Below, one piece after another: positions 28,412-34,098 of a DNA stretch of 34,098 nt. Each line of letters opens with the position of its first letter. Within the stretch, counting starts at the first letter, position 1. The notes beneath the pieces are model-generated. The model was not told the DNA's origin. It did no database searches and worked only from the letters and a program-made list of their open reading frames with translations. Origin of the DNA: Pelagibacteraceae bacterium (GTDB lineage: Bacteria > Pseudomonadota > Alphaproteobacteria > Pelagibacterales > Pelagibacteraceae); contig VTPP01000013.1 of the NCBI GenBank assembly GCA_008638225.1, positions 1 to 34,098 on the forward strand, in the 5' to 3' direction. The position numbers were made by a program, and so were the translations under genes.

Positions 28412-29731
28412 ATGAAAAATAAATATACTTTACTTATCAAAAATGCTGAATGTTATATAGATGGTGATCTTATAGTTTCTGATATCGCTATAATAGACAA
28501 TATTATTTCCAAAATATCTATCAACATTAACGAACCTGCAGATAAGATTTTAGATGCCAAAGGTTTAACTATTTTTCCTGGTATTATTGACACCCAAGTT
28601 CATTTTAGAGAACCAGGAGATCCTAATAAAGAAACGTTAGAGAGTGGAAGTAAAGCTGCAGTGCTTGGCGGAGTTACTTCTGTCTTTGAAATGCCAAATA
28701 CAAATCCACCAACTGACAGTCCAGAACGTTTTCAGGATAAATTAGACAGGGCAAAAAACAGAATGTATTGTAATTATGCTTTTTACTACGGAGCAACTGA
28801 AAATAACTCCTCCTCTTTAGATGTTACTAAAAATTTAGAAGGATGTTGCGGAGTTAAGATGTTCATTGGATCATCCACAGGAAACTTATTAGTAAAAGAT
28901 GATAAATATATAGAATTAGTTATTAAAAACTCACCAAGAATTGTCTCTGTTCATTCTGAAGATGAGGACATACTAAACGCAAACAAAGACAAAATAATCA
29001 AAGGTGATGTTCAATCTCACTATGTTTGGAGAAGCGTTGAATGCGCTATGGCATCAACAAGAAAAGTTGCTAGCTTTGCAAAAAAACATCAGAAGCGAGT
29101 GCACGTTCTTCACGTATCAACCAAAGATGAAATTGATTTTTTAAGAGATTATAAAGATATAGTTAGTGTTGAAACAACCCCTAATCATTTAAGTTTATTT
29201 GCCCCAGATTGTTACGCGAAAAAAGGAACTTTTGTCCAAATGAACCCTCCGGTTCGAGAAAAAGAGCACATGAATGGAATTTGGAAGGGTGTACTAGACG
29301 GAACAGTGGATGTGATTGGATCTGATCATGCACCTCATACTAAAGAACAAAAATTGCAAGAATATCCAGCAAGTCCATCTGGCATGCCCGGTGTTCAAAC
29401 AATTTTCTTGTTAATGTTAAAACATTTTAATGAAGGAAAAATAAAATTATCAAAAGTAATAAGTTTACTTTCAGAAAATCCTTGTAAATTATTTGGGATT
29501 AAAAAAAGAGGATATATTAAAGAAGGTTTTTATGCAGATCTAGCTATTATAGATTTGAATAAAGAGTTTACCATAACCAATGATTGGATCGCAAGTAATT
29601 GTAAATGGACTCCTTTTGATGGATGGAAAGTCAAGGCTACCCCATTTGGCACTATTGTGAATGGAGATGTGTCTGTATGGCAAGGAAAATTAGCTGATCA
29701 AAAATCGGGAAAACCTTTACAGTTTAATTAG
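28412..29731 (+). CDS. pyrC: Dihydroorotase, class I (PyrC-like amidohydrolase)
   Basis: This zinc amidohydrolase closes carbamoyl-aspartate to dihydroorotate in pyrimidine synthesis. I choose the ATG at 28412 (439 residues) over an in-frame TTG at 28388, which would add eight residues of no family character. Visible metal and substrate residues are H64 with Q62 in DTQVHFREPG, K149 in GVKMFIG, H181 in VHSEDED, H234 in HVLHVST, and D305 in GSDHAPHT, with the NPP-x-R loop at 278-282. The first His of the usual H-x-H is Gln, which I believe recurs in an alphaproteobacterial subgroup. Allantoinase or dihydropyrimidinase are less likely, given the FREPG and MNPPVR motifs. Confidence 0.87.
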   Translation: MKNKYTLLIKNAECYIDGDLIVSDIAIIDNIISKISININEPADKILDAKGLTIFPGIIDTQVHFREPGDPNKETLESGSKAAVLGGVTSVFEMPNTNPPTDSPERFQDKLDRAKNRMYCNYAFYYGATENNSSSLDVTKNLEGCCGVKMFIGSSTGNLLVKDDKYIELVIKNSPRIVSVHSEDEDILNANKDKIIKGDVQSHYVWRSVECAMASTRKVASFAKKHQKRVHVLHVSTKDEIDFLRDYKDIVSVETTPNHLSLFAPDCYAKKGTFVQMNPPVREKEHMNGIWKGVLDGTVDVIGSDHAPHTKEQKLQEYPASPSGMPGVQTIFLLMLKHFNEGKIKLSKVISLLSENPCKLFGIKKRGYIKEGFYADLAIIDLNKEFTITNDWIASNCKWTPFDGWKVKATPFGTIVNGDVSVWQGKLADQKSGKPLQFN

Positions 29732-30227
29732 ATTTTTTCATTTTTTCTATCTGAGACTTTAATTCATTTAATTGTTGAGATAAAGAATCGATATCAGTAG
29801 CTTTCGAACTATTTGTAGGTGCCTGAGTTTTAGTAAAATTTTTTGCATTAGGAAAATCAAAGAATTTTTGAAAATCAAATGGATTAAATTTCATTATTCC
29901 TCCAAATCCTTCTGTAAAAATATTTTTAGAATTAGCAAAATTTAGGACATTACTAAGAAAACCAAACATATCTGCAGACTGATTGTTTTCATTAAATATA
30001 ATAATTTGTTTCAAAAATTCTTCAGGTATTAAATTGGTCCCAGCTGTTTGTTTTTCTAAAAGAATTTGCATTAAAATAGACGATGTGATGTCTTTTTGTG
30101 AATCTACATCAGTAATCTGAAAAGGTGTTTTGTTTTTAATTAAATTAACAATGTCATCTTGAGTTATGTAATTACTAGTTTCAGTATTGTATAATCTACG
30201 ATTAGAATATTTTTTAATAACTAACAT
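29724..30227 (-). CDS. phaR: PHA synthesis repressor PhaR
   Basis: PhaR binds both PHA granules and DNA; when granules appear it leaves its operators and phasin is made. The N-terminal 60 residues are the accumulation-regulator DNA-binding domain: IKKYSNRRLYNTETSNYIT at 4-22, then DDIVNLIKNKTPFQITDVDS and DITSSILMQILLEKQ. Residues 61-167 are a less conserved granule- and self-association part ending in a coiled-coil-like SLSQQLNELKSQIEKMKKSN. It follows phaC by four bases on the same strand. Its tail overlaps pyrC by eight bases. The TTGC-N3-GCAA dyads upstream of phaC and phasin are its likely targets. Confidence 0.93.
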   Translation of the reverse strand: MLVIKKYSNRRLYNTETSNYITQDDIVNLIKNKTPFQITDVDSQKDITSSILMQILLEKQTAGTNLIPEEFLKQIIIFNENNQSADMFGFLSNVLNFANSKNIFTEGFGGIMKFNPFDFQKFFDFPNAKNFTKTQAPTNSSKATDIDSLSQQLNELKSQIEKMKKSN

Positions 30228-30231
30228 CTAA

Positions 30232-32187
30232 CTATTGTTCAATTACGTATTCACCTGGTGCTGAATAAATTTCAGAGAATTTATTTAAATTAATATCAGC
30301 GATTGCTTTCGCATCACCAGAATATTGTTCTAGCCAATTAGTCCATTCCGGCCACCAAGAACCATCTTGTTTTTTGGCTGTTTCTAGCCAATCAGTAGCA
30401 GGGGATGTGACCGTAACCTTGTCATTACTATAATAATGCTGCTTACCAGGTTTTGCGTCCTTACCTTGAATAATGCCAGCGATGTGACCAGAATTAGCAA
30501 GAACGAATTTGCATTGATTGCTGTAATTTTTTAGACCAGAAAATACAGATTTCCATGGCGCGATATGATCTTCTGTGGTCGCTACATGAAACATTGGCGT
30601 TTTAATTTTACTTAAATCTAAAACCAAGTCTTTAAATTTATATTCTTTTTTAATAATTTTATTATGTAAATACATCGAGCGTAAATAATCACTATGTAAT
30701 TTTGCAGGAAGTCTTGTTGAATCACTATTCCAATATAGCATGTCAAAAGCAGACGGTTGATTTCCTAGCAAGTAGTTATTTACGACATAGTTCCAGTACA
30801 AATCACCCGGTCGCAAGAAATTAAAAGCTGCAGCCATATTTTTACCATCGAAGTAACCAACTTTGCTCATCTGTTCTTCTATAGCTTTAATTTGTTCGTC
30901 AGTAATAAAAATTCCTAAGTCACCCGGTTCTGAAAAGTCTATTAAGCTAGCAAAGAAAGTAGATGAATTTATTTTATAAGGAATTTTAATTTGCTCAACG
31001 TAAGCCAAGACCATAGCGACAAGAGTTCCTCCAACACAATAAGATGCTAAATTAATTTCTTTAGAACCAGTTTGTTCACAAGCAATTTCTATTGCTTTTA
31101 AAACTCCATTATCTATATATTCCTCAAAACCAAAATCTTTACTTTCAATCTTAGGATTTTTCCATGATATTAAAAATGTATTAATTTTATTTTCTACTAA
31201 GTATTTCACCATGGATTTCTTTTCATTTAAATCCATAATGTAAAATTTATTAATAAAAGGAGGAATAATTAATAATGGTTTTTCATATTGAGTAGTTGTT
31301 TCTGGTTTATAGTGAATAAGTTCAAATATTTCATTCTTAAAAATTACAGACCCTGGTGTAGTTGCTAAATTTTCCCCGACCTTAAAATCAGAAAATTTTG
31401 TTTGTGATATAAATAATTTATTTGGATATTTTAAATAGTCTTCTTTAAAATTATTATATCCACGTACTAAATTTTCTCCATTTTCTTTAAAAGTGGCCAT
31501 CATTACATCGGGATTAGTAAAGACAAAATTACTTGGAGACATCGCCATGTTTAATTGTTTAATATAAAATTGCATTAATGCTTTCTGTTTTGGATCTGGA
31601 AATTCAACAGATTCAACTAGGTTGTCTAACATTTGAGAAGTAATTAAATAAAATTGTTTAATAAAATCAAAAAATAAATTTTGCTTCCACTCTTCTGAAG
31701 AAAATCTTTTATCAGTTTTATCTTCTTTGATAGCAGGTAGAGCACTGTTGTTAGAAAGTTTTGAAATGAAGTAAAAATTTAATGTAGTTATTTGTGTTAG
31801 CCAATTATTAATATTGTTGTAATATATTTGTGGATTTTTTCCAATTTCATTCGTAAACTTTTCAATACTCTCTAAAATTTTAGTTGTAGTTGGATTGATT
31901 GATTTTAATAAATCATTTATGCTAAAATCATTTGGACTAGATGTATTTACTTTTTGTGCCTGATTATTTTGTCCAAATGCAGATAAACTTGAATTAATAA
32001 TATTGTTATAAATTTTTATATTGTTTTGAAAAATATCATTTAGCTGATCAAAGTTAGGTAGCTCATTTTTCTCATGATCTTTTTTGTTTTCCGATGTTGG
32101 TTTTTCTTTTGGCTGCTCTCTTTTTTGACTTTGCTCTTCTGATGCAATGGAGGCTTTTGCTGTAATTTTTGTTTTATTTGACTTCAT
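30232..32187 (-). CDS. phaC: Class I poly(3-hydroxyalkanoate) synthase
   Basis: PhaC polymerises 3-hydroxybutyryl-CoA on the granule surface. The lipase-like box is SYCVGG with nucleophile C384; D540 in TTEDHIAPW and H568 in NSGHIAGII complete the triad. The Asp-His spacing of 28 equals that of the Ralstonia enzyme. Tryptophans in DGSWWPEWTNWLEQY near the C-terminus are the usual class I end. At 651 residues it is longer than the roughly 590 of the type enzyme, mainly because of a Lys/Glu/Gln-rich low-complexity N-terminal stretch of about 45 residues. It is followed by phaR after four bases and diverges from the phasin gene across about 200 bases of operator-rich DNA. Confidence 0.96.
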   Translation of the reverse strand: MKSNKTKITAKASIASEEQSQKREQPKEKPTSENKKDHEKNELPNFDQLNDIFQNNIKIYNNIINSSLSAFGQNNQAQKVNTSSPNDFSINDLLKSINPTTTKILESIEKFTNEIGKNPQIYYNNINNWLTQITTLNFYFISKLSNNSALPAIKEDKTDKRFSSEEWKQNLFFDFIKQFYLITSQMLDNLVESVEFPDPKQKALMQFYIKQLNMAMSPSNFVFTNPDVMMATFKENGENLVRGYNNFKEDYLKYPNKLFISQTKFSDFKVGENLATTPGSVIFKNEIFELIHYKPETTTQYEKPLLIIPPFINKFYIMDLNEKKSMVKYLVENKINTFLISWKNPKIESKDFGFEEYIDNGVLKAIEIACEQTGSKEINLASYCVGGTLVAMVLAYVEQIKIPYKINSSTFFASLIDFSEPGDLGIFITDEQIKAIEEQMSKVGYFDGKNMAAAFNFLRPGDLYWNYVVNNYLLGNQPSAFDMLYWNSDSTRLPAKLHSDYLRSMYLHNKIIKKEYKFKDLVLDLSKIKTPMFHVATTEDHIAPWKSVFSGLKNYSNQCKFVLANSGHIAGIIQGKDAKPGKQHYYSNDKVTVTSPATDWLETAKKQDGSWWPEWTNWLEQYSGDAKAIADINLNKFSEIYSAPGEYVIEQ

Positions 32188-32245
32188 TTACTTATTTTTT
32201 AATTCTTATTATCTTTTTATTGAGCTGTTTATGCAATATAAGATA

Positions 32246-32256
32246 TTGCATAGCAA
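32246..32256. promoter_or_regulatory. PhaR operator candidate 1 (TTGC-N3-GCAA)
   Basis: TTGCATAGCAA is a dyad with perfect TTGC/GCAA arms. It lies just downstream of the candidate phaC -10, near the predicted start point. A further half-site, ATGCAA at 32231-32236, lies 15 bases to its left. Confidence 0.6.
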
Positions 32257-32266
32257 TATTATAGTA

Positions 32267-32277
32267 TTGCGATGCAA
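32267..32277. promoter_or_regulatory. PhaR operator candidate 2 (TTGC-N3-GCAA)
   Basis: TTGCGATGCAA repeats the first dyad 21 bp away, two helical turns, so both sites face the same side of the DNA. It falls between the -35 and -10 positions of the candidate phaC promoter. Confidence 0.6.
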
Positions 32278-32339
32278 TAAATAAAAGTATTTAAAATCAA
32301 TAATTTATATTTTTTATATAAAATATATATTGTAATATA

Positions 32340-32350
32340 TTGCAACGCAA
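32340..32350. promoter_or_regulatory. PhaR operator candidate 3 (TTGC-N3-GCAA)
   Basis: TTGCAACGCAA lies between the -35 and -10 of the phasin promoter, 73 bp from dyad two (about seven helical turns). Binding here would block phasin transcription until PhaR is drawn to granules. Confidence 0.6.
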
Positions 32351-32387
32351 CATATATACTAAGTAACTTTAAACAATAGGAGTAAAT

Positions 32388-32846
32388 ATGTTCAATACAA
32401 ACACTAACTTTTTTGAAATCTTTGATTTTCAAAAAATTTTATCAGCGGCTAAAATGCCTTCTTTAGATGTAAATTCTGAGGCTTTAATCAATTCTCAGAA
32501 AAAAACTATGGAAGCTTTTGCTGGCGCTTCTAAAGCGGCTTTTGAAGGTGTAAACGCATTTTCAAAAAAACAAGTTGAGATCTTAAACGATGCAATCGCA
32601 TCTGCTAAAGACGTAACTTCTGAAATCGCTAAAGGAAATGTTCAAGAATCAGTGGCTAAATCAGTAGATTCACTTAAATCTGCTATCATTGAAGCACAAG
32701 CTAATGTTGCTGAACTAGCAAAAATTAATGAAAAAACTGCTAAAGAAGCATTTGATATTTTAAATGCTAGATTTTTAGATGGTTTGACTGAAATCAAGAA
32801 CGTTATAGTTGATAAAAAAACAGCTACAGCTTCAGTTAAAAATTAA
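32388..32846 (+). CDS. phaP: Phasin family PHA granule-coating protein
   Basis: A 152-residue amphipathic helical protein, rich in Ala, Lys and Glu, with the phasin pattern AFAGASKAAFEGVNAFSKKQ at about 43-62 followed by long heptad-like helices and LNARFLDGLTEIKNV near the end. Phasins cover the PHA granule surface and set granule size. A good AGGAG ribosome-binding site precedes the ATG, and a strong terminator follows the gene, as expected for an abundant structural protein. The operator-containing promoter upstream suggests that PhaR controls it. Confidence 0.88.
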   Translation: MFNTNTNFFEIFDFQKILSAAKMPSLDVNSEALINSQKKTMEAFAGASKAAFEGVNAFSKKQVEILNDAIASAKDVTSEIAKGNVQESVAKSVDSLKSAIIEAQANVAELAKINEKTAKEAFDILNARFLDGLTEIKNVIVDKKTATASVKN

Positions 32847-32941: not shown

Positions 32942-33667
32942 ATGAAAAAACTTGCACTAGTAACAGGAGGAACAAGAGGCATTGGCGAAGCTATTGCTAA
33001 AAAATTACAACAAGATGGATGTGAGGTAATTGCAACCTATATTGGAAGACCAGAGTCTGCCGAAGCATTTACAAACGCAACTGGTATTAAAACTTATAAA
33101 TTTGACGTTGCTTACTTTGAAAGTTGCAAAGATGCGATTGAACAAATAGAAAAAGATTACGGACGAAGTATCGATATAGTTATTAATAACGCCGGTATTA
33201 CAAAAGATAGATTTATTCACAAAATGTCACCGGATGAATGGAGTTCAGTAATTAATACTAATTTAAATTCATGTTTCAATATTACCAGAAACGTAATTGA
33301 AAAAATGAGAGAAAAAAAATTCGGAAGAATTATCTCCATCAGTTCTATTAATGGTTTAAAAGGTCAAATAGGTCAGGCAAATTACGCGGCAGCTAAAGCG
33401 GGAATTATAGGATTTTCAAAATCAATAGCCCTAGAAAATGCAAATAAAGGTATTACTGTAAATGTAATTGCCCCTGGCTATGTGGGAACAGATATGGTGA
33501 AAAAAATTGATCCAACTATTTTAAAAGGAATTGTATCTCAGATACCTGTGGGTAGATTAGCAGAACCAACCGAAATTGCAGCGCTTGCTAGTTATTTAGC
33601 TGGTGATAGTGCTGGCTTTATTACTGGTGCCACGTTCTCTATCAACGGTGGTCAGTATATGCAGTAA
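32942..33667 (+). CDS. phaB: Acetoacetyl-CoA reductase (short-chain dehydrogenase)
   Basis: PhaB reduces acetoacetyl-CoA to (R)-3-hydroxybutyryl-CoA with NADPH, feeding PhaC. Its 241 residues are typical. The Rossmann motif TGGTRGIGEAIA is at 8-19, NNAG at about 86-89, and the catalytic Y148-x3-K152 lies in NYAAAKAG, after the ISISSINGLKGQ strand. APGYVGTDM follows, and the C-terminus GGQYM is the usual PhaB end (GG-x-x-M). FabG is the main alternative, but the position between phasin and phaA supports PhaB. There is no Shine-Dalgarno; a possible promoter (TTGAGG 32905-32910, TATATC 32927-32932) would start the message about three bases before the ATG, so it may be leaderless. Confidence 0.92.
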   Translation: MKKLALVTGGTRGIGEAIAKKLQQDGCEVIATYIGRPESAEAFTNATGIKTYKFDVAYFESCKDAIEQIEKDYGRSIDIVINNAGITKDRFIHKMSPDEWSSVINTNLNSCFNITRNVIEKMREKKFGRIISISSINGLKGQIGQANYAAAKAGIIGFSKSIALENANKGITVNVIAPGYVGTDMVKKIDPTILKGIVSQIPVGRLAEPTEIAALASYLAGDSAGFITGATFSINGGQYMQ

Positions 33668-33704: not shown

Positions 33705-34098
33705 ATGAACAACGACGATATAGTTATCACAAGCGCTTTTAGAACTGCAATTGGATCTTTTGGAGGATCTCTTGCAAGCCAAACTGCTCCTCAATTAGGT
33801 GCTGCGGTTATTAAAAAATGTTTAGAACATTCAGAATTAAAAAATGATGAAGTAGATATGATTTACATGGGACAAGTTCTAACTACTGGGGTAGGACAAA
33901 ATCCGGCAAGACAAGCTGCTATGCATGCTGGTATTGCTAAAGAAAAAACAGCTACCACTATTAATCAAGTTTGTGGTTCAGGGCTCGCTTCAATCGCTCT
34001 AGCTTATAATTCAATTAAGTGCAAAGATGGTTCAATTATTATTGCTGGTGGACAAGAAAGCATGTCTAATTCTGTTCATTACATGAATTTAAGAGACG
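33705..34098 (+). CDS. phaA: Acetyl-CoA acetyltransferase (beta-ketothiolase), 3' end outside the window
   Basis: The first 131 residues of a thiolase. The start MNNDDIVITSAFRTAIGSFG and the active-site C90 in INQVCGSGLAS are diagnostic of a biosynthetic thiolase, which condenses two acetyl-CoA to acetoacetyl-CoA, the first step of PHB synthesis. IIAGGQESMSNSVHYMNLRD matches the usual region after it. A ribosome-binding site AGAAGGAA lies before the ATG. It follows phaB by 37 bases and is probably cotranscribed. The catalytic His and second Cys lie beyond the window. Confidence 0.94.
   Translation, partial: MNNDDIVITSAFRTAIGSFGGSLASQTAPQLGAAVIKKCLEHSELKNDEVDMIYMGQVLTTGVGQNPARQAAMHAGIAKEKTATTINQVCGSGLASIALAYNSIKCKDGSIIIAGGQESMSNSVHYMNLRD

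Follow-up and report, generated by a model that had tools for sequence, protein, structure and literature searches.

Do SAR11 bacteria control their PHB store? Transcriptional regulation in the group is described as very scant, and for strain LSUCC0530 a 2025 study saw no obvious regulatory mechanism behind PHB synthesis and proposed that it is constitutive (PMC12113158). The question is raised by a contig of a Pelagibacteraceae bacterium, of which we analysed a stretch of 34,098 nucleotides, called the window below. In a 200-bp gap between a phaC gene and a phasin gene, an initial annotation had noticed three TTGC-N3-GCAA dyads and had read them as operators of PhaR, spaced such that looping could repress both flanking promoters together. 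The nearest named relatives of the PhaC are found in Pelagibacteraceae assemblies (78 to 93% identity over the best segment) and include CP.15 and CP.55. Members with these names, CP15 and CP55, are placed in SAR11 subclade IIIa.3 (PMC10030771), and the window is therefore from this brackish branch or very near to it.

The features of the locus are as follows.

29724..30227, minus strand: phaR, 167 aa, PHB/PHA accumulation regulator with a PF07879 DNA-binding domain and a C-terminal coiled-coil-like helix
30232..32187, minus strand: phaC, 651 aa, class I PHA synthase (TIGR01838, 641.4 bits, above the cut-off of 622.65)
32246..32256, no strand: dyad 1, TTGCATAGCAA, where phaC transcription is expected to start; spacer ATA, outside RNY
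32258..32263, minus strand: putative phaC -10, TATAAT (consensus match only)
32267..32277, no strand: dyad 2, TTGCGATGCAA, inside the putative phaC promoter spacer; spacer GAT, fits TGCRNYGCA
32280..32285, minus strand: putative phaC -35, TTTATT (weak; consensus match)
32295..32307, plus strand: IHF-like sequence (speculative), AATCAATAATTTA, about halfway from dyad 2 to dyad 3; exact match to the IHF consensus WATCAANNNNTTR
32330..32335, plus strand: predicted phasin promoter -35, TTGTAA (TTG at the same dyad offset in aligned relatives)
32340..32350, no strand: dyad 3, TTGCAACGCAA, inside the phasin promoter -35/-10 spacer; spacer AAC, fits TGCRNYGCA
32353..32358, plus strand: predicted phasin promoter -10, TATATA (from the alignment of relatives)
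32388..32846, plus strand: phasin gene (phaP), 152 aa (PF09361, 36.5 bits; TIGR01841, 32.1 bits, above the cut-off of 30.2)
32942..33667, plus strand: phaB, acetoacetyl-CoA reductase, 241 aa (TIGR01829, 339.2 bits, above the cut-off of 302.1)
33705..34097, plus strand: phaA, acetyl-CoA acetyltransferase (PF00108, E 5e-41), truncated by the contig end

The phaC-phasin gap and its dyads

The gap divides phaC-phaR, which run leftward, from phasin-phaB-phaA, which run rightward; phaA is complete in the relative L050. The annotated adjacency of phaR holds. The gene follows phaC at a distance of 4 nt and is probably part of a single transcript with it, and a single operator cluster in the gap could control all five genes. 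The encoded PhaR passes the PF07879 model (PHB_acc_N) with 84.5 bits against a cut-off of 25 (E 5.4e-24, residues 3-62). However, it stays under the TIGR01848 equivalog cut-off (95.2 vs 109.45 bits), and it was therefore filed under PF07879 and not as a TIGR01848 equivalog. No recognised domain, including PHB-binding, was found in its C-terminal part at E values up to 5, and a search for solved-structure relatives of the protein returned none at E up to 1. The AlphaFold model of PhaR was treated as uninformative (mean pLDDT 61, pTM 0.42), and Foldseek gave no match to it in the PDB at E<=0.001, the best being Skp1-like chains at 0.037.

A motif scan of the 34 kb returned exactly three TTGC-N3-GCAA matches, all of them in the gap, with start-to-start spacings of 21 bp (dyads 1 and 2) and 73 bp (dyads 2 and 3), as originally noticed. 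All three contain the core TGC-N3-GCA; the PhaR consensus TGCRNYGCA is matched by dyads 2 and 3 and only in part by dyad 1. Such sites might be chance palindromes of AT-rich DNA, and the count over the window is indeed ordinary, with a shuffle mean of 0.86 and at least three sites in 6 of 100 whole-window shuffles, so that it is weak evidence when taken alone. When the 200-bp gap (32188-32387) was dinucleotide-shuffled 20,000 times, however, 176 of the shuffles had one site and none had two or more. The clustering of the dyads in the gap is not due to chance, and with the conservation of the dyad over five genera described below, we consider the chance explanation practically negligible.

The whole genome (1,023,108 bp, 45 contigs) contains 24 copies of TTGCN3GCAA, compared with 3 of a control pattern read backwards. 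All 21 copies outside the window overlap ORFs (simple ORF call, threshold 60 aa), and the three dyads are the only copies that do not. The initial annotation would have given up the operator reading had the motif been as frequent in unrelated intergenic DNA of the genome as in the gap, and it is not. The core TGCRNYGCA has 30 sites: 2 in the gap, 1 in an ORF of the window and 27 elsewhere, which all overlap ORFs. Two of the ORFs covering these core copies are small (70 and 75 aa), and the site in the 75-aa one is also inside an ORF of 245 aa. An RNY spacer is present in 2 of the 21 coding TTGCN3GCAA copies vs 18 of 18 SAR11 phasin-promoter sites, the latter being loci related to each other, which makes a p-value for this contrast nominal.

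Dyads 2 and 3 had been assigned to the spacers of two opposed promoters. For the phasin side this is borne out by conservation: the 17-bp spacer of TTGTAA/TATATA (8 of 12 consensus bases) contains dyad 3. For the phaC side the evidence is a consensus match with a poor -35, where the minus-strand TTTATT/TATAAT (9 of 12 consensus bases) encloses dyad 2 in a spacer of 16 bp; a minus-strand -10-like hexamer often follows dyad 2 in the relatives, and their phaC -35 matches are poor as well. A generic promoter scan missed both assigned promoters (2 promoter-like sites vs a shuffle mean of 3.4), and we therefore relied on conservation. Promoter evidence from one genome alone is weak, and on the phasin side it is conservation that carries it; both promoter positions are thus predictions. 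Dyad 1 had been placed at the predicted phaC start, which is correct for the expected transcription start (about 32251, within the dyad) but not for the start codon (32187). No terminator or structured RNA was found in 32150-32420, and there was no Rfam match in 32000-32500.

Conservation in SAR11 and across the class

Among 397 genomes of the family, 19 have a phasin relative and 22 have PF07879; both are found in 18, phasin alone in 1, phaR alone in 4 and neither in 374. Of the 19 phasin loci 18 were usable, as L084 (G043) has a phasin fragment of 25 residues without upstream DNA and was dropped; L050-L054 largely duplicate the assemblies G002-G005 and were not counted as extra loci. A YGCRNYGCR site is present in the phasin promoter region of all 18 loci, which belong to five genera. 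It aligns to dyad 3 in 17 of them. There the TGC or CGC is preceded at eleven bases by the TTG of the -35, and the -10, which resembles TATATA or TAAATA, follows at a promoter spacing of about 17 bp (in six LD12 rows the automated scoring picked a 16-bp or shifted pair, and 17 bp is the alignment as read by eye). The 18th locus, G120, has CGCACCGCA in a similar promoter and a second site, TGCAATGCA, downstream. The bases that vary between the phasin sites are the spacer centre and the Y, while GCA-N-Y-GCA is constant, the pattern that would be expected of a protein site.

Sites on the phaC side are less uniform. They have an N3 spacer in 9 of the 18 loci and N4 in 6 LD12 loci, and in the other 3 there is no TGC-N3/4-GCA or YGCRNYGCR. 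In the 15 loci with sites on both sides, 73-75 bp always separate dyad 3 from the phaC-side site (15 of 18 loci overall, four genera). The phaC-side sites form a pair 21 bp apart in three loci of the genus of the window (IIIa.3-type) and 22 bp apart in six LD12 loci. In LD12, TGC-N4-GCA sites 22 bp apart are seen on the phaC side of six of eight loci, and the phasin site stays N3 (e.g. L146:3872-4068).

The pattern TTGCRNYGCAA was found 47 times in 11 SAR11 genomes. The simple classification gave 34 coding and 13 intergenic sites, although the phasin dyad of G120 (L083) counts as coding only since its ORF was called from a point upstream of the phasin start. Eight of the intergenic sites are in phaC-phasin gaps. 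None of the other five is beside a recognised PHA gene; on reading, one of them (L133) turned out to be within a lon-like gene that is split. A possible second target of PhaR comes from another SAR11 genus, two genomes of which have a conserved TTGCACCGCAA about 40 bp upstream of a gene for a hypothetical protein of 207 aa (L127:1501-1511 and L111:1501-1511). In G001, a 100%-complete genome of the genus of the window with a contig of 1,284,727 bp, no phaR, phaC or phasin was detectable, and the PHA module therefore seems to have been gained or lost as a unit within the genus.

The site is also kept beside phaR genes that stand alone. Two genomes of another SAR11 genus, G012 and G025 (completeness 85 and 79%), have kept phaR, and no phaC or phasin relative was found in them. 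In G012, phaR is divergent from a thiolase gene over 52 bp that contain TTGCAACGCAA (L103:1440-1491), and G025 has TTGCATTGCAA at the matching place upstream of phaR (L101, site 1714-1724). The PhaR proteins of both lack the C-terminal coiled-coil-like stretch. In G059, which has no detectable phaC, phaR faces a thiolase gene across 300 bp (L104:1684-1983) with a relic of the dyad that has one mismatch.

For the class we used 190 alphaproteobacterial genomes, 109 of which have PF07879, and extracted up to 300 bp upstream of 108 phaR copies, leaving out those of the window and of G014. These regions contain 110 YGCRNYGCR sites vs 39.8 in shuffles (maximum 56 in 200 sets), a 2.8-fold excess, and the strict TGCRNYGCA occurs in 30 of the 108 regions vs 5.5 in shuffles (maximum 11); in 31 sites the spacer is of the reversed form, YNR. 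Pairs of sites 20-22 bp apart were found 17 times vs 0.145 expected (maximum 2), in 17 regions of 14 genera. No pair of this kind is seen in the remaining 91 regions, 39 of which contain no site. The 17 pairs make a spacing like the 21 bp between dyads 1 and 2 the favoured paired arrangement in the class, which suggests that two dimers, or a tetramer, bind one face of the helix. A literature search on paired PhaR sites found only unrelated papers. An operator pair at 20-22 bp before phaR in 14 genera would amount to a structural rule for PhaR binding.

The sites resemble those described for PhaR in other bacteria. The motif of Sinorhizobium meliloti PhaR (AniA) at phaP1 and phaP2 has the same YGCRNYGCR core with AT-rich arms, each phasin promoter has two palindromes, and PHB relieves the repression by PhaR (PMC12542648). 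In contrast to the locus studied here, where one copy is inside the -35/-10 spacer, a further dyad pair belongs to the divergent phaC and no second intergenic copy was found in the genome, the two S. meliloti copies lie on either side of the -35 and the regulon is broad, as described in that paper. The motif given for R. sphaeroides is CTGCN3GCAG (PMC12542648). Bradyrhizobium diazoefficiens PhaR has the consensus TGCRNYGCASMA, derived from footprints, and as here its sites are located around the -35 of phasin genes (PMC6201568); the same account lists dozens of target genes, and AT-rich outer bases are a feature of the present sites. Herbaspirillum seropedicae PhbF, footprinted on TG[N]TGC[N]3GCAA, represses phaP1 and itself (PMC3206438), but from its own autoregulated promoter, whereas autoregulation of phaR would here go via the phaC promoter. 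Ralstonia eutropha PhaR has three palindromes at one phasin gene, as found here, and the authors suggest a LacI-like arrangement at phaP1; the region there is not a divergent phaC/phasin one, and PhaR also activates phaP3 (PMC12849132).

A probable polymer-relieved repression and its alternatives

Taken together, the fit to the published motif, the position of phaR 4 nt behind phaC, the site in 18 of 18 phasin promoters, its absence from other intergenic DNA of the genome and its retention beside orphan phaR genes argue strongly for the original reading, and the dyads are very probably PhaR operators. We consider it highly probable that they bind the PhaR encoded 2 kb away and bring about a polymer-relieved repression of both transcripts. 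Without polymer, PhaR would keep RNA polymerase from both promoters: as a dimer at dyad 3 within the phasin promoter spacer, and at dyads 1 and 2 over the core and start of the phaC promoter, as dimers or, spanning the 21-bp pair, as a tetramer. Once PhaC makes PHB, PhaR would be drawn to the granule and the operators vacated, upon which the phasin-phaB-phaA and phaC-phaR transcripts would both rise; newly made PhaR would then close the feedback loop. One 200-bp control region would in this way govern the entire pathway. This model joins the observed sites, gene identities, conservation and exclusivity in the genome to PhaR binding at such sites, capture by PHB and derepression, steps that are carried over from other bacteria. 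Phasin-phaB-phaA, and probably phaC-phaR, are very probably governed from one region. Joint repression, as annotated, would have its firmer half on the phasin side, with a site in 18 of 18 loci, as the phaC side is less conserved (N4 in LD12, degenerate or absent in 3 of 18); we infer that repression of phaC too is likely.

It is this difference between the two sides that gives weight to a reading in which the phasin-side dyad is the only important operator, the phaC-side sites are weak or decaying and phaC-phaR is near constitutive. The phaC transcript of LSUCC0530 is reported to be constant under N and P changes (PMC12113158), which fits, but so is that of phaBA on the phasin side. Pairs at 21 or 22 bp persist on the phaC side of three IIIa.3-type and six LD12 loci, and the 20-22 bp pair is favoured before phaR across the class; we therefore regard this reading as rather unlikely. 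Another regulator that happens to share the dyads is a very unlikely explanation. It could draw on the TIGR01848 cut-off that PhaR missed, but the motif follows phaR even where no phaC and phasin are detectable, is found upstream of phaR across the class, and has a core matching several experimentally defined PhaR motifs.

The proposal that the spacing permits looping requires a separate assessment. In this version, PhaR bound at dyads 2 and 3 would bring the two sites, 73 bp apart, together into a loop to which an IHF-like protein at 32295-32307 may add a bend, and both promoters would be repressed jointly. The distance of 73-75 bp is kept in 15 of 18 loci from four genera; however, this is also expected if both sites are simply fixed within two promoters, and a 73-bp loop is stiff. 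There is an exact IHF-like match near the midpoint of dyads 2 and 3; 2.4% of shuffles of the spacer between them contain an exact match, but matches with one mismatch occur in half of the shuffles. The match recurs unchanged in 5 of the 18 loci, and in 7 more a single base differs at the same offset; the other 6, including LSUCC0530, have no match within one mismatch at that offset. Genes of the DNABII family nearest to IHF alpha and IHF beta were present in 6 of 6 genomes, though all of them under both curated cut-offs. Even with the LacI-like precedent suggested for R. eutropha (PMC12849132), we judge the loop unlikely. Less likely again is a version in which SAR11 PHB is under a single-region polymer-sensing switch: the 21-bp pair would be tied by a loop, possibly IHF-bent, to the operator in the phasin spacer, and the pathway and phaR would go on and off together, giving granule-positive and granule-negative cells within one culture. 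In 12 of the 18 loci the IHF-like sequence belongs to a conserved stretch that keeps a distance of 46 bp from dyad 3. Three DNABII (HU/IHF) genes, all under the curated cut-offs, were seen per SAR11 genome examined (G000: C38, C17, C44).

The locus in strain LSUCC0530

Polymer-relieved repression by PhaR is a known kind of system; the new points are that SAR11 very probably has it, restricted in the genome studied to a single intergenic region, and that a strain reported to be without regulation probably has it too. The four primers printed in PMC12113158 map to the pha locus of genome G010, which is "Ca. Fonsibacter ubiquis" LSUCC0530. Malate synthase isoform A, described as peculiar to LD12 (PMC6018831), was over the cut-off in 4 of 4 genomes of the genus of LSUCC0530 vs 0 of 10 others tested. 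The locus is arranged as phaR-phaC / phasin-phaB-phaA-enoyl-CoA hydratase-alpha/beta hydrolase, where the last two names follow phaJ and phaZ of PMC12113158. Directly behind phaC, with a 4-nt overlap, is phaR, and the phasin promoter contains TTGCACTGCAA, the conserved candidate operator.

The word phaR does not occur in the main text of PMC12113158, and our literature search found no paper describing PhaR in SAR11. The cloned phaC fragment of that study stops at the phaR start codon and omits most of the control region, so that the E. coli experiment is uninformative on regulation. Transcripts of phaC and phaBA reported as unchanged with N or P supply (PMC12113158) would be as compatible with a loop that senses polymer, not nutrients, as with constitutive expression. 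Contrary to the proposal made there, SAR11 probably control their PHB store. With phaR and the conserved site present in LSUCC0530, how minimal cells decide on carbon storage, and why only some cells have granules, become directly testable questions in the sequences of a cultured strain.

The C-terminal part of SAR11 PhaR contains a conserved hydrophobic segment in an alignment of 21 of the 22 sequences (L094 contains N and was dropped). By eye, a short hydrophobic NPF/DFQ-like segment is common to the C-terminal part of PhaR (29724-30227) and the N-terminal part of the phasin (32388-32846), and it is possibly a shared granule-binding motif.
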